Assembly: GCA_021836725.1 (NCBI GenBank)
Contig: JAKBHL010000005.1
Span: 1 to 50,339 of the forward strand
Direction of reading: 5' to 3'
DNA length: 50,339 nt
Origin: a bacterium
GTDB taxonomy: Bacteria > Patescibacteriota > Minisyncoccia > Phycocordibacterales > Phycocordibacteraceae
Positions 1,969-43,386 of the stretch are shown in pieces. Below the pieces are notes generated by a model. That model saw nothing but the letters and a program-made list of their open reading frames with translations. It was not told the DNA's origin and made no database searches. Each line of letters opens with the position of its first letter. Position 1 is the first letter of the stretch. Position numbers and translations under genes: made by a program.

Positions 1969-2331
1969 ATGAAAACCCTTTTTGAACACATCGAGTACGT
2001 ACAAGGGAAACCGCGCCACGTGCGCGAGCGGATCGCCTTCGGCGCAGCTGCGGGCGGCACGGCGCTCATCGCGCTTGTGTGGTTTGCCGGCACGCTCGCT
2101 TCGGGAACGCTCGCCATACACGCAAGCTCGTTCGCCGCGGCTGCCGGGCAGGGACAGATCGTTGCAACCGAAAACGCAAATCAGAACAACAGTACGGGCG
2201 TAGCCGCGGTCGCGGCCGCATCCGGAGGGAGTGCGGGGAATGCATCAGCGCCGGCGCATATCGAGATCATCAACGCGCCCTCCGCAACGTCTTCGGCGGC
2301 GCAGACCGATCGGACGACCATACCGTTCTAA
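1969..2331 (+). CDS. hypothetical protein with one TM segment
   Basis: ORF between the MBL gene and gyrA; hydrophobic segment [21 protein letters not shown]. Confidence 0.5.
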
Positions 2332-2353
2332 GCGCGCGCTTAATCACATCATC

Positions 2354-4834
2354 ATGGCGCGCGGGAAGGAAGATAAGGAAAACAATGCGGCGGCATCAGC
2401 CGCTTCCGCGAATATCATCGATCAGCCGATCGTCGCGGAGATGCGCGCCTCGTATCTCGATTATGCGATGTCGGTCATTACGAGCCGCGCGCTTCCGGAT
2501 GTGCGCGACGGGCTGAAGCCCGTGCACCGCCGCATCCTCTATGCGATGAAGGACATGGGGCTCGTTCCCGGGGGGAAATTCAGAAAGAGCGCCACCGTGG
2601 TCGGCGAAGTGCTCGGCAAATACCATCCGCACGGCGACACCGCCGTCTATGACTCGATGGCAAAGATGGCCCAGGAATTCTCGTATCGTTACCCGCTCGT
2701 CCTCGGCCAGGGTAACTTCGGTTCGGTCGACGGCGACTCGCCCGCAGCCATGCGGTACACCGAAGCGAAGATGTCGCGCATCGCCGAAGCGCTCCTCCAG
2801 GATCTTGAGAAAGAGACCGTTGCGTGGAATCCGAACTACGACGCGACGCGCGAAGAACCGAACGTCCTCCCTGCGGCGCTTCCGAACCTGCTCTTGAACG
2901 GCACTCTCGGCATCGCGGTCGGGATGGCGACTAGCATCCCGCCGCACAATCTGCGCGAGGTCGTCGCGGCGACCATCCATCTCATTGATAATCCGGGCGC
3001 TACCACCGACGATTTGCTCGCATTTGTAAAAGGCCCCGATTTCCCCCTCGGCGGCGTCGCTTTCGGCCAGACGGATATCAAACACGCGTATGGTTCGGGC
3101 CGGGGGCCGGTGGTGGTGCGCGGCGAGGCGGAGATCGTCGACGACGGAAAGAAAGACACGCGCATCATCATCACCTCGATCCCGTATCGCGTGAACAAGA
3201 GCGAGCTCATCGCCCGTATCGCGGAGTTGGTGCAGGAAAAGAAGCTTGAGGGCATCCGCGACCTGCGCGACGAATCGACGAGCGATGTCCGCGTGGTGGT
3301 CGAATTGAAGGGAACGGCGCACCCGCAAGCGGTCCTCAACGCCCTCTATAAGCACACCGAGCTCGAAAGCACGTTCCACTACAACATGCTCGCCCTGGTC
3401 GACGGCGTGCCGGAAATGCTCTCGCTTTCGGCCATGTTGGAACAATTCGTGGAGCACCGCCGCGTCGTGGTGAAACGTCGTACCGAATTCGATCTGCGGA
3501 AAGCGCAGGAACGCGAGCACATCCTCCTCGGGCTCTCCAAAGCGCTCGATCACATCGACGAAGTCATCGCTATCATAAAAAAAGCCCCGGATGTCTCAAG
3601 CGCGGATAGCGCTTTGCGTAGCACGTTCGGCTTCTCGCAGTTGCAGACGGCCGCCATCCTCGCGATGCGGCTTCAGACGCTCGCCGGTCTCGAACGCAAG
3701 AAGATAGAAGACGAACTCACCGAGATCCAAGCACTCATCAAAAAGCTCGAGGACATCCTTTCTTCGGCGAAAAAGATCCTTACGGTGGTGAAGAAAGAAC
3801 TCACGGAACTCGCCGAGAAGTACGGCGATGACCGCCGCACCAGAATCGTAAAGGGCGGCGTGCAGAACATTTCAGTGGAAGACCTCGTGCCGGACGAGGA
3901 GTCGATGCTCCTTCTCACGCAGGGCGGTTACGTGAAGCGGACGAATCCGAGCGAATACAAGAGCCAGAAACGCGGCGGCGTCGGCGTCGTCGATATCGCG
4001 ACGAAAGAAGAAGATGTCGTTACGCACTTCCTCGTCACGAGCGCGCATAGCGACCTCCTCTTTTTTACCGATTTCGGGAAAGCATACCAGCTCAAGATGT
4101 ACGAGCTGCCGGAGGGGAAGCGCGCGACCAAAGGCAAAAGCATCATGAATTTCCTCCCGCTCGCGCTCGAAGAGAAAGTGACTTCCATCTTGCCCGTGCC
4201 AAAGGGCGCGGCGCTCGATGCCTCGTCGGTCATCTTTGTGACGGAAGCCGGCGTCGTGAAGCGGGTAGCGGCGAAAGCGTTCGCCGACGTGCGCCGCTCG
4301 GGCATCATCGCCATCAATCTGAAGGATGGCGACAAGCTCGTTTCAGCCAATCATGCGACCGAAGAGGACACGGTATCTCTCGTGACGGCGAAAGGCCAGT
4401 CGATCCGCTTTGCGGTCGAAGACGTGCGGGAAATGGGCCGCACCGCCGGCGGCGTGAAGGGCATGAATGTGAAAAAAGGCGATCGCGTGGTCTCGGCGGA
4501 GGTCATTTCCGAGCTCCATGCGCAGGACGCTTCGCTCCTCGTCATCATGAGCAAGGGCTACGGTAAGCGCACGAAGATTTCAGAATATAAAATCCAAGGC
4601 CGCGGCGGTTCGGGCGTGAAAACCGCGGCAGTAACGCCGAAAACGGGCGAAATCATCGGAGCAAAAATCGTCGTTGGCGACCTGAAAGAAGAAGAGCTCG
4701 TGGTTATTTCAAAGAAAGGACAGGTCATACGGACTTCGGTTGCCGAAATCTCTCTGCTTTCGCGCGCGACTCAGGGCGTCCGCGTCATGCGCCTCTACGA
4801 AGGCGACTCAATCGCCTCGATGGCGGCACTGTAG
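2354..4834 (+). CDS. gyrA: DNA gyrase subunit A
   Basis: [62 protein letters not shown] and C-terminal beta-pinwheel repeats; start placed at the internal ATG (MARGKED). Confidence 0.97.
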
Positions 4835-4970
4835 AACCCATTTCAAAACCCCCGCTCGGGTGTACGACAGAAAGGAGTACGCCGTCTTTTTGTACTCAAA
4901 AAGCGGCTCGTACTCGCGCCGCCGCGCTCCGTAAGCCTCTTTCTGCCGCACACCCTTCGCGGGGAGATTG
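4832..4970 (+). repeat. dispersed TAGAAYCC-flanked palindromic element, copy 1
   Basis: TAGAACCCATTTCAAAACCCCCGCTCGGGTGTACGACAGAAAGGAGTACGCCGTC...CCGTAAGCCTCTTTCTGCCGCACACCCTTCGCGGGG; core 4850-4964; overlaps the gyrA stop codon. Confidence 0.85.
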
Positions 4971-4985
4971 AGTCTTGAGCTGGGG

Positions 4986-5012
4986 ATCTCCTAAGATGTC
5001 ATCTTAGGAGAT
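4986..5012. terminator. strong palindrome, possible terminator or second module of element copy 1
   Basis: ATCTCCTAAGATG-T-CATCTTAGGAGAT perfect 13 bp arms. Confidence 0.5.
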
Positions 5013-5076
5013 TGAAGCTCCCGCTCGTGTTGATTGCGCGGCCCGGAGCGTTCCGCGTGTGGTATTTTGTCTGTAC

Positions 5077-13490: not shown

Positions 13491-13644
13491 AACCCTTTTA
13501 GAACTCCCGCTTCCCCGCGAGGTGTGTGCGGCAGAAAGAGGCTTACGGAGCGCGACGGCGTAAGTTCGAGCCGCTTTTAGAGCAGAAAAAGACGGCGTAC
13601 TCCTTTCTGTCGCATACCCGAGCGGGGGGTTGAGATGGGTTCTA
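13488..13644 (-). repeat. dispersed TAGAAYCC-flanked palindromic element, copy 2 (inverted)
   Basis: reverse complement reads TAGAACCCATCTCAACCCCCCGCTCGGGTATGCGACAGAAAGGAGTACGCCGTC...CGCGGGGAAGCGGGAGTTCTAAAAGGGTTCTA; core 13513-13627; both termini TAGAACCC/GGGTTCTA. Confidence 0.88.
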
Positions 13645-13653
13645 GAAAGAAAG

Positions 13654-13742
13654 TACCAAGGGTGAGACTCGAACTCACATGAAGGTTTTTAGGCCCTCTC
13701 AGGATTTTAAGTCCTGTGCGTCTACCATTCCGCCACCTTGGC
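13654..13742 (-). tRNA. tRNA-Leu(UAA)
   Basis: GCCAAGGTGGCGGAATGGTAGACGCACAGGACTTAAAATCCTGAGAGGGCCTAAAAACCTTCATGTGAGTTCGAGTCTCACCCTTGGTA (reverse complement). Confidence 0.93.
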
Positions 13743-17713: not shown

Positions 17714-20392
<2,679 letters not shown>

Positions 20393-20402
20393 TTTGCGCT
20401 TC

Positions 20403-20501
20403 GCGGCCCGGCGATTTTTGAGTACGGCGTATTTTCCTGCTGGAAAATCGCCTCGCCCTCGGCTCGTCAGCCTGCGGGAGCCTCAAAAATCGCCGGGCCG
20501 C
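20403..20501 (+). repeat. probable divergent member of the palindromic element family
   Basis: GCGGCCCGGCGATTTTTGAG...CTCAAAAATCGCCGGGCCGC 20 bp perfect outer arms; inner GAGTACGGCG-T-ATTTTCC-TGCT-GGAAAATCGCC and GCCTC in the same layout as copies 1-4. Confidence 0.6.
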
Positions 20502-31437: not shown

Positions 31438-32709
31438 ATGCTCGATATACATTTCATTCGGGAGAACGCCGCTCTCATAAAGGCAGGCGCGACAAAGAAA
31501 CATATGGATGCGGATATCGACGGCCTACTCGCGGTCGACGACGAACGTAAACGGCTGCGGCAAGAACTTGATGCGAAACGCGCGGAACAGAACCGCCGCA
31601 GCAACGAGATCCAGATTGCCAAGGGCGCCGAACGCGAAAAGATAATCGAAGCGATGCAGCACCTGAAAAACGGCATGGCCGAGAGCGAGGAACGTCTGAA
31701 GAACGTGATGCTCGAATGGCAGCGGCTCATGCTCACGGTGCCGAACATTCCCGACATGTCGGTACCGGACGGTGTAGATGATGCGGATAATGTAGAAGTG
31801 AAGAAATGGGGCGAACCGACGGCGTTTGGCTTTGCGCCCAAGGACCACATCGACATAATGACCGCGCTCGACATCGCCGATTTCGGGCGGGGAGCAAAAG
31901 TAGCCGGCTTCCGCGGCTACTTCCTCAAGGGCGACGGCGTCCTCCTCGCCAATGCCGTCTGGCAACTGGCGCTCAAGCACTTTTCCGCGAAAGGGCTTTC
32001 GCCCCTGAGCGTTCCGTCCTTGGTGCGCCGCGAGGCATTTCTCGGCACCGGCTACCTTCCGCAAGGGGAAGACGATCTGTACAAGACCCAAGACGGGGAA
32101 TACCTCGCAGGCACTGCGGAAGTGGCGACGATGGCCTACTACATGAACGAGACCATAGACCTTTCAAAACATCCGGTGCAATTTCTTTCGTTCTCGCCCT
32201 GTTTCCGGCGCGAGGCCGGTGCGCACGGAAAGGACGTGCGCGGCCTCATCCGCGTGCACGAATTTTTCAAATGGGAGCAGGTCGTCCTTTGCAAAGCGGA
32301 ACACGACGAGTCGGTCCGCCTTCACGAGTGGCTCAACCGCAACACCGAAGAGTTCATCGAGCTTCTGGGCATCCCCTATCACACGGTGGCCAACTGCGGC
32401 GGCGACTTGGGCCTCGGACAGGTGAAAAAATATGACATCGAACTGTGGGTTCCCGGAGAGAACACCTATCGCGAGATAAGCTCGGCATCCTATTTCCACG
32501 ATTTCCAGACGCGCCGGCTCAATATCCGCTACCGCGATGCGGAAGGGAATCTCAAATTCGCCCATTCCTTGAATTCCACCGCGATACCGACGCCGCGCAT
32601 CCTGGTTTCGATCATTGAAAATTACCAGCAAGCGGACGGTACGATAAAAGTGCCGGAAGCTCTCGTGCCCTATGTCGGAAAGAGCGTTATCGGCGAAGCG
32701 GGGCGGTGA
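31438..32709 (+). CDS. serS: serine--tRNA ligase
   Basis: MLDIHFIRENAALIKAG; LAGTAEVATMAYY; FSPCFRREAGAHGKDVRGLIRVHEFFKWE. Confidence 0.95.
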   Translation: MLDIHFIRENAALIKAGATKKHMDADIDGLLAVDDERKRLRQELDAKRAEQNRRSNEIQIAKGAEREKIIEAMQHLKNGMAESEERLKNVMLEWQRLMLTVPNIPDMSVPDGVDDADNVEVKKWGEPTAFGFAPKDHIDIMTALDIADFGRGAKVAGFRGYFLKGDGVLLANAVWQLALKHFSAKGLSPLSVPSLVRREAFLGTGYLPQGEDDLYKTQDGEYLAGTAEVATMAYYMNETIDLSKHPVQFLSFSPCFRREAGAHGKDVRGLIRVHEFFKWEQVVLCKAEHDESVRLHEWLNRNTEEFIELLGIPYHTVANCGGDLGLGQVKKYDIELWVPGENTYREISSASYFHDFQTRRLNIRYRDAEGNLKFAHSLNSTAIPTPRILVSIIENYQQADGTIKVPEALVPYVGKSVIGEAGR

Positions 32710-33604
32710 GCGGCTCTCAGCGCGGCGGCGCAAGCGCCGCCGCCGCGCATTCATCGCGCTTTGCGCGCTCGTCTTCCTTTTCCTCGGTGCCCTTGTGTAC
32801 GGACTGCAGCAGCCGGGCGTCCGCATTTCACATATCGAGGTCTATGGCGTCGATGCGTCGGCCGCGTCGATAGCGAACGAAGCGATGCGGGGAAGCTATT
32901 TCGGCATCATTCCGCGCAATTCGACTTTTTTCCCGCCCACCGCGCTCATACGCGCAGACCTGCTTGCCGCATATCCCGGGGTAGCCGCAGTATCGATTTT
33001 CAGGAACGGATTTACCGGACTCTCGATCAAGGCAGATCCCCGCACGCCGCTCGCGCGCTGGTGCGGTTCCGCTTCGGCGTCGTCCTCGCCGGAAGATTCG
33101 CCTTTGAAGGAAGTACTACCGGCGGCATCCGGCGATTGCTATCTCTTTGACCCGAGCGGCTTCGTGTATGCGACCGCGACCGAAGCATTTCCTTTCTCGG
33201 GAACCGCTTCATCCTCTTCCGTCGGCGCCGGATCAAATCCGGACCAAACGCTCGTACCGTATGTTCTTTTTGATCCGCTTGCTTCTCCCGCAACCTCGCC
33301 GGTGGGCGCAACGCTCAAAAACGCAAGCCAATTGTCCAGGGTTTTTGATTTTGCGCAGCAAATAGGATTGCTCGGCCCTTCGGTCGGGACCATCGTCATC
33401 CGCGGTCCCGAGGTCGATTTTTTCCTCGCGACTTCCACATACGGCGCTCCCGCCGGATTGCGTATCACCTATCTTCTCGGCGATGAACAGAATGCTCTGA
33501 CCGCGCTCGTTTCCGCAAAAAGCCAGCTTGATCTTTCCGATCCGACTCTCGAATACGTCGATTTGCGTTTTAGCGGAAGGATCTATCTTAAAAAACGGAG
33601 CTAG
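32672..33604 (+). CDS. FtsQ/POTRA-like cell-division membrane protein
   Basis: basic N-terminus, single TM, HIEVYGVDAS POTRA-like segment, PGVAAVSIFRNGFTGLSIKADPRTPLARWC. Confidence 0.65.
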   Translation: MSERALSAKRGGERLSARRRKRRRRAFIALCALVFLFLGALVYGLQQPGVRISHIEVYGVDASAASIANEAMRGSYFGIIPRNSTFFPPTALIRADLLAAYPGVAAVSIFRNGFTGLSIKADPRTPLARWCGSASASSSPEDSPLKEVLPAASGDCYLFDPSGFVYATATEAFPFSGTASSSSVGAGSNPDQTLVPYVLFDPLASPATSPVGATLKNASQLSRVFDFAQQIGLLGPSVGTIVIRGPEVDFFLATSTYGAPAGLRITYLLGDEQNALTALVSAKSQLDLSDPTLEYVDLRFSGRIYLKKRS

Positions 33605-33745
33605 AATCCATTTCAAACCCCCATTTCCCCGCTCGGGTATGCGACAGAAAGGAGTACGCTGTCTTTTTCTGCTGAAAAAGCAGCTCGTACTCGCGTCGTC
33701 ACGCTCCGTAAGCCTCTTTCTGCCGCATACCTGAGCGGGGGCATT
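33602..33745 (+). repeat. dispersed TAGAAYCC-flanked palindromic element, copy 3
   Basis: core 33627-33740: CCCCGCTCGGGTATGCGACAGAAAG...CTTTCTGCCGCATACCTGAGCGGGG; TAGAATCC overlaps the stop codon of the FtsQ-like gene. Confidence 0.88.
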
Positions 33746-33794
33746 GTGGCAATTCTGGGGTGCCGTGTTAGAACTGTCAGCATAGGACTCTGTT

Positions 33795-42879: not shown

Positions 42880-43215
42880 ATGAAACTCATTTTCCACTGG
42901 CTCATTGCGACGCTCGCGATCCTGATCGCGGCATACATCGTTCCGGGCGTCACCATAACGCTCGTCGGCGCGCTCATCGCCGCCGTCGTCCTCGGCGCGC
43001 TCAACCTCCTTGTCCGTCCCATCCTTCTCATCCTGACGCTTCCGATCACCATCGTGACGCTCGGTCTTTTTTCTCTCGTGATCAACGCGCTTCTCGTCAT
43101 GCTCGCGGCCGTGCTCGTGCCGGGATTCTCAGTCGCCGGTTTTTGGACCGCATTCCTTTTCGCACTCGTGCTTGCCGTCGTGAACTGGGTCTTCCATCTC
43201 TGGAACCGCAGCTAG
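42880..43215 (+). CDS. phage-holin-like/Mycobacterial 4TM superfamily membrane protein
   Basis: LIATLAILIAAYIVPGVTITLVGALIAAVVLGALNLLVRPILLILTLPITIVTLGLFSLVINALLV. Confidence 0.82.
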   Translation: MKLIFHWLIATLAILIAAYIVPGVTITLVGALIAAVVLGALNLLVRPILLILTLPITIVTLGLFSLVINALLVMLAAVLVPGFSVAGFWTAFLFALVLAVVNWVFHLWNRS

Positions 43216-43386
43216 AATCCCACCCCGCTCGGGGTATGTGACAGAAAGGAGTACGCCGTCTTTTTCTGCTCTAAAAGCGGCTCGAACTTACGCCGTCGCG
43301 CTCCGTAAGCCTCTTTCTGCCACATATCCTCTCGCGGGGTTCGATTTCCTAACCTAAAATGACATTTTGGGGAACGAGGGGTTCTA
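43213..43386 (+). repeat. dispersed TAGAAYCC-flanked palindromic element, copy 4, between convergent genes
   Basis: TAGAATCCCACCCCGCTCGGGGTATGTGACAGAAAGG...CTTTCTGCCACATATCC...GAGGGGTTCTA; core 43223-43339; termini provide both flanking stop codons. Confidence 0.9.

Follow-up and report, generated by a model that had tools for sequence, protein, structure and literature searches.

Several described systems share features with the element analyzed here. Rickettsia palindromic elements (RPEs) are likewise short palindromes dispersed in small genomes (Ogata et al. 2000, cited in PMC6649704; PMC10969869). Both RPEs and our element occur between genes and in frame inside unrelated protein genes, a likeness of description. 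The arms of RPEs reportedly lose their repeat identity over time (PMC6649704), whereas each locus of our element has arms of its own that remain near-perfect. They also enclose a conserved three-way-junction core, which sets the element apart from RPEs. In the clade of the host genome the element resembles a MITE, with terminal inverted repeats, a 4-bp CTAG at the insertion site, a length of ~150 nt, no internal gene and ~40 similar copies. However, no autonomous partner was found in four genomes by a terminal-repeat pattern search or a search for DDE_Tnp_1, and most copies elsewhere have no common terminal repeats and carry their own arms instead. REP and REPIN sequences, moved by Y1 transposases (RAYT), are also hairpin units dispersed near gene ends, but our element is a three-way junction with 18-30-bp arms and Y1 is undetectable in 20 of 59 element-bearing genomes. 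Perfect inverted repeats, concerted arms, spacer inversion and a location within coding sequence are shared with quasipalindromes subject to template switching (PMC7202029, PMC8604942) and with the coding palindromes of Nematomorpha mitochondria (PMC6649704). Unlike our element, neither is tied to one conserved core repeated across genomes. With Rfam-type structured RNAs the element has in common conserved helices, loops and bulges with covariation, but it shows no wobble asymmetry and has no Rfam match. Our best reading is that it works like a MITE and an RPE, fitting each class in part.

The window, by which we mean the whole stretch of 50,339 nt that was analyzed, comes from a 616 kb genome in 16 contigs that holds the ~40 copies recognized by DNA similarity. 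The first-pass annotation had counted four copies in the window. There are five, the fifth being a covariance-model match at 20413-20491. The copies, and the two hairpins of copy 3, are as follows.

4850-4970, plus strand: copy 1 (model match 4868-4946; outer repeat from 4831)
13524-13627, minus strand: copy 2 (model match 13531-13609; outer repeats 13645 to 13488)
20403-20501, plus strand: copy 5 (model match 20413-20491; same core, different arms)
33627-33740, plus strand: copy 3, palindromic arms and core, the finding of the first-pass annotation
33658-33684, plus strand: hairpin I of copy 3, GCTG-(bulged T)-CTTTTTC-TGCT-GAAAAAG-CAGC, from the fold and the model alignment
33687-33713, plus strand: hairpin II of copy 3, GTACTC-GCGTCGTCACGC-TCC-GTAAGC, from the model alignment
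43223-43326, plus strand: copy 4 (model match 43242-43320; outer repeats 43212 to 43386)

Within the window there are four exact occurrences of the core string GACAGAAAGGAGTACG, where 0.26 matches would be expected at up to 3 mismatches. The four similar copies are parts of longer units with outer repeats TAGAA(C/T)CC..., starting at 4831, 13645 (minus strand), 33601 and 43212. The unit of copy 3 begins at ~33601 with CTAGAATCCATTTCAAA, in which TAG terminates the upstream ORF 32672-33604. Similarly, the outer repeat of copy 1 overlaps the DNA gyrase A stop codon (gene 2231-4834) and the start of copy 4 is the stop codon of a holin-like ORF (42880-43215). Copy 2 follows a tRNA gene of the same strand (13654-13742) at a distance of ~9 nt. 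Copy 5 follows directly on the stop codon of a ClpB-like gene (17714-20392). Its arms are 20 nt long and perfect (GCGGCCCGGCGATTTTTGAG / CTCAAAAATCGCCGGGCCGC) and are unlike those of the other four copies. Orthologues of copy 5 in three related genomes have similar cores with other arms, and in one of them (L193) the arms partly no longer match. A short palindrome, (T)CTCCTAAGATG-CATCTTAGGAG, recurs beside several copies (~4970-5020 in the window; L004, L009, L011, L054, L288) and is possibly a separate repeat.

The arms of copy 3, 25 nt each, pair with one G-T and one A-C, in agreement with the earlier description of this copy. The minimum free energy of 33615-33755 is -72.9 kcal/mol versus -39.1 +/- 3.6 for shuffles (z -9.33), with 0 of 200 shuffles as low; the outer part of hairpin II is imperfect. 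The annotation had taken base changes between the copies as compensatory. The stem segment TATGCG/CGCATA of copy 3 is indeed TATGTG/CACATA in copy 4, the base of the inner hairpin is GCCG/CGGC or GCTG/CAGC as it had stated, and the bulged T is kept. Paired changes are thus present from copy to copy, but copies 1 and 2 each break the same stem segment with an A.C pair, so the evidence for compensation from the four copies alone is thin. The A-C mismatch by CAGAAAG, put forward as a conserved irregularity, is not one: at least 13 of 38 genome-wide matches (about one-third) have GCAGAAAG, which restores a G-C pair.

Beyond the window, the analysis drew on genome stretches around copies. With relatives, only the inner ~60 nt are in common, and the flanking inverted repeats are unrelated in sequence each time. 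A covariance model (R1) was built from 19 diverse cores and has the layout arms, TAC, hairpin I, TC, hairpin II, arms. Hairpin I is made up of GCCG, a bulged T, a seven-pair stem and a TGCT loop; hairpin II has six pairs, an inner four pairs, a CGTC loop and a TCC bulge. What is conserved is a three-way-junction core of ~60 nt with two hairpins and fixed unpaired bases. In several genomes (L051, L080, L085, L089, L097, L099, L108) the loop of hairpin II contains a further nested hairpin, about CCAAGTTTCTAATTCGCTCCGCTCATAAGAAACTTTTGG, and elsewhere (L059, L060, L062, L064) a nested insert ACTAAATTATATGTTTAACATTTAATTTAGGTTTCTAGAGAAG takes the place of part of hairpin II.

R1 has at least 50 matches in the host genome. 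Within the genus it matches 59 of 93 genomes, and across the order 151 of 299 sampled genomes, representing 84 of 165 genera. Elsewhere in the phylum hits are scattered, notably in one family outside the class. At the gathering score, Rfam yielded only tRNAs in the window, and at a relaxed threshold nothing on the element. Viral contigs held no exact match to the core pattern, and no relevant account of similar elements from Parcubacteria or the Candidate Phyla Radiation emerged from a literature search. The element family is widespread in tiny-genome Parcubacteria and apparently undescribed so far.

Covariation is also found in the larger alignments. In the seed of 19 cores, double changes occur at 24 of 31 pairs, with a covariation score of 0.448 versus 0.159 when shuffled (slid partners reach at most 0.159). 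Among 32 copies that searches of the order and phylum later added, nearly all of them from outside the seed, 29 of 31 pairs have double changes and the score is 0.751 versus 0.199 shuffled, in an alignment that was fitted to the model and therefore leans towards it. The model takes in 10 arm positions, and the arms beyond them provide an independent test of pairing. Positions 11-18, counted from the core, have an arm complementarity of 0.78-0.88, versus 0.25-0.39 for swapped partners; it falls to ~0.5 at position 25 and reaches baseline by 30. An arm score of at least 15 was found for 92 of 111 copies versus 7 of 550 swapped pairs. Between loci, left arms share just 29% identity. In copies at unrelated loci, different, near-perfect palindromic arms of 18-30 nt surround the core. 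The conserved fold proposed from the window is real and extends far wider than the window, with unpaired features of the core kept.

Covariation so strong is normally taken as proof of a conserved RNA, and the conserved loops and bulges favor the same view. The element would then be a structured RNA (a 3'-end, terminator-like or processing element), with transcript selection keeping the stems and the arms forming an unconserved closing stem. For a selected transcript, G.U should be more frequent than A.C on its strand. That is not the case here. Across the core and inner arms of the 79-nt ungapped copies there are 30 G.U versus 41 A.C, and in the outer arms 51 versus 58. As a control, acceptor stems in 37 tRNAs encoded by the same DNA have 9 G.U and 0 A.C. 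Pairs also switch directly from G-C to C-G or back without passing through a wobble (e.g., 23:21 at one pair). The comparison of G.U with A.C is a simple control, useful for any covariation claim on palindromes, as paired change alone is not selection. Further points against a transcript are the lack of a consistent T run after the arms and of an Rfam match, and the copies within coding genes.

The same site was recognized in different genomes, by matching flanks on both sides, in 23 groups. At many of these orthologous sites the orientation and a similar core are kept, as an RNA would also predict, while both arms differ yet remain palindromic. Between L134 and L168, for example, the outer flanks are 90-98% identical and the cores agree at 57 of 59 positions, but about one-third of arm positions differ with pairing perfect in both. 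Together with the direct G-C/C-G switches, the rewriting of both arms within near-identical flanks fits a DNA palindrome whose arms are mutually copied. The suggestion that selection acts on RNA or DNA structure divides: selection on RNA is not supported, with no G.U excess and arms rewritten together, and selection on the DNA structure of the core is likely but unproven.

Close relatives (~85-95% identical) also differ in the direction of the element. At distinct sites common to them with both flanks matched, 13 of 19 are inverted and 6 are not, pairs with two opposite copies at one site being set aside. Inverted amplified units include window 4868-4946 versus L087, and L004, L011, L015, L016, L020, L024, L029, L046, L051, L054, L059 and L060 versus relatives. 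These inversions may be real flipping or an assembly effect, as short-read assembly could invert the interiors of palindromes. They lie in the amplified units of close relatives; copies with locus-specific arms keep their orientation over deep divergence. Template switching between inverted repeats is reported in PMC8604942 to cause arm homogenization and spacer inversion, and PMC6649704 likewise describes both outcomes of polymerase template switching. As both match the sites here, we infer template switching indirectly.

Taken with the inversions, the wobble test points to DNA-level arm copying. We regard it as fairly probable that this element represents a new Parcubacteria family of short DNA palindromes, whose arms stay complementary through copying of one from the other at the DNA level and whose core is putatively recognized in its folded form. 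The unit is a ~60-nt core between two inverted arms of about 18-30 nt. DNA synthesis or repair may copy one arm from the other by template switching in a hairpin or cruciform, which would give perfect arms, joint changes and an inverted spacer with no need for an RNA product. The core could be kept by some agent recognizing the folded DNA for mobilization. In the host clade, the element multiplied as a MITE-like unit of ~150 nt. If right, this reading would add a large family of palindromic elements for Patescibacteria, for which no earlier report was found in the literature searched.

Against arm copying stands the orientation of the elements with locus-specific arms relative to genes, as a transcribed signal might show. 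Intergenic copies favor gene 3' ends. For copies with locus-specific arms, a co-oriented gene end lies within 25 nt upstream in 33 of 49, versus 11 of 50 when mirrored (p 7e-6), though with ORFs called mechanically all ORF and gene-end counts are approximate. The amplified CTAG units have no such asymmetry. Placement directly after co-oriented stop codons is the best remaining argument for an RNA role, and arm copying leaves it unexplained. Copies within ORFs (~24 of the 114 with distinct arms) are mostly in reverse orientation, 19 versus 5 in sense, and the scarcity of sense copies could be read in favor of RNA. However, the bias also follows from a reverse strand poor in stops, with all three frames open in 56 of 114 cores in reverse and in 14 in forward. 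Overall, we consider a structured RNA unlikely. We see a similarly slim chance for a combination in which the folded core is functional at gene 3' ends and site-stable across species, while its arms are repeatedly rewritten as perfect palindromes; this would be a class of element with free sequence but actively renewed self-complementarity.

Copies inside genes include several in dnaE. Within the genus, the loop between VNESG..FT and IRFGLSSIKN holds a short linker, one in-frame core-type palindrome, two, or unrelated palindromes. Nine dnaE copies lie in frame in open frames of several hundred codons, and a further in-ORF copy is in a prmC-like gene. The core-type insertions in dnaE have a scattered distribution, with 8 changes across 9 rows of a tree in which few branches are well supported. 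One pair of dnaE genes with flanks 99-100% identical differs in presence versus absence of the element. Neither arm matches the empty linker, and so both arms come with the unit; the few changes beside the site suggest short-tract exchange. If our reading is right, a replicative DNA polymerase contains an in-frame insertion hot spot. The loop (L103-L132) is a hot spot for palindromes unrelated to the core as well, of the GAGTAAGGTC type in L109 and L113 and the CCCC-TTAGAA type in L119 and L120. In L130 two core-type elements lie in one dnaE gene.

In the host clade the element forms part of a longer unit, which bears terminal repeats and lies at CTAG. The terminal inverted repeats, TAGAACCCATTTCAAA...TTTGAAATGGGTTCTA, are present on many copies of this clade and not on copies with locus-specific arms. 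A clean empty site was found for a 154-nt unit, filled in L163 and empty with a single CTAG in L086, a ~90%-identical relative. The evidence for this and for a target-site duplication is from one copy, with CTAG on the left of the L163 target and a diverged CCGG on the right; CTAG is intact on both sides in L003 and L017.

These empty sites bear on two other origins for the arms. The core could enter the loop of a palindrome that was already there (a terminator, for example), the arms being host sequence, which would explain why they are locus-specific and often start at a stop codon. As neither arm is present in the empty dnaE alleles or at the clean empty site, we disfavor this origin and consider it very improbable. 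Alternatively, insertion could duplicate the target in inverted orientation and so make the arms, consistent with their being unrelated between loci. Here too the empty sites hold neither arm (in the filled and empty dnaE pair neither matches the linker), and units of the host genome take the same arms to new sites. We likewise disfavor inverted target duplication, which has little chance of being correct.

A transposon-like element is a more serious, if tentative, possibility. An enzyme would recognize the hairpins as single-stranded or cruciform DNA, and selection for mobility would keep the pairing. The repeat family, empty sites and CTAG insertion are in line with this, as are the conserved unpaired positions and the symmetric mismatches expected at the DNA level. 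It accounts for the core better than for the perfect pairing of arms of arbitrary sequence, and mobility for the core is compatible with arm copying for the arms. The long stay of copies at the same site is unusual for an active mobile element. Nor do candidate enzymes follow the element. Among the 93 genomes, the element and Y1 are both found in 39, the element alone in 20, Y1 alone in 16 and neither in 18; Y1 is thus not required for presence of the element, and a RAYT-type transposase was rejected as the mover. DDE_Tnp_1, considered as partner of the CTAG unit, is absent from four genomes with or near the amplified unit. A pattern search of four genomes for a long autonomous element bounded by the terminal repeats found none, with the ends present in three of the four.

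Motifs outside the arms are enriched only in a minority of copies (TCGC on the right in 13 of 87 versus 1; TC on the left in 22 of 87 versus 6), and we do not claim a conserved end motif. In L283, L285 and L286 (G127), CTAG-type terminal repeats surround other nested hairpins and no core, one of them ~65 nt; the terminal-repeat unit therefore exists without the core. At L016 2745-2897, a different palindromic insertion of ~150 nt lies beside CTAG and is cleanly absent in L065 and L091.
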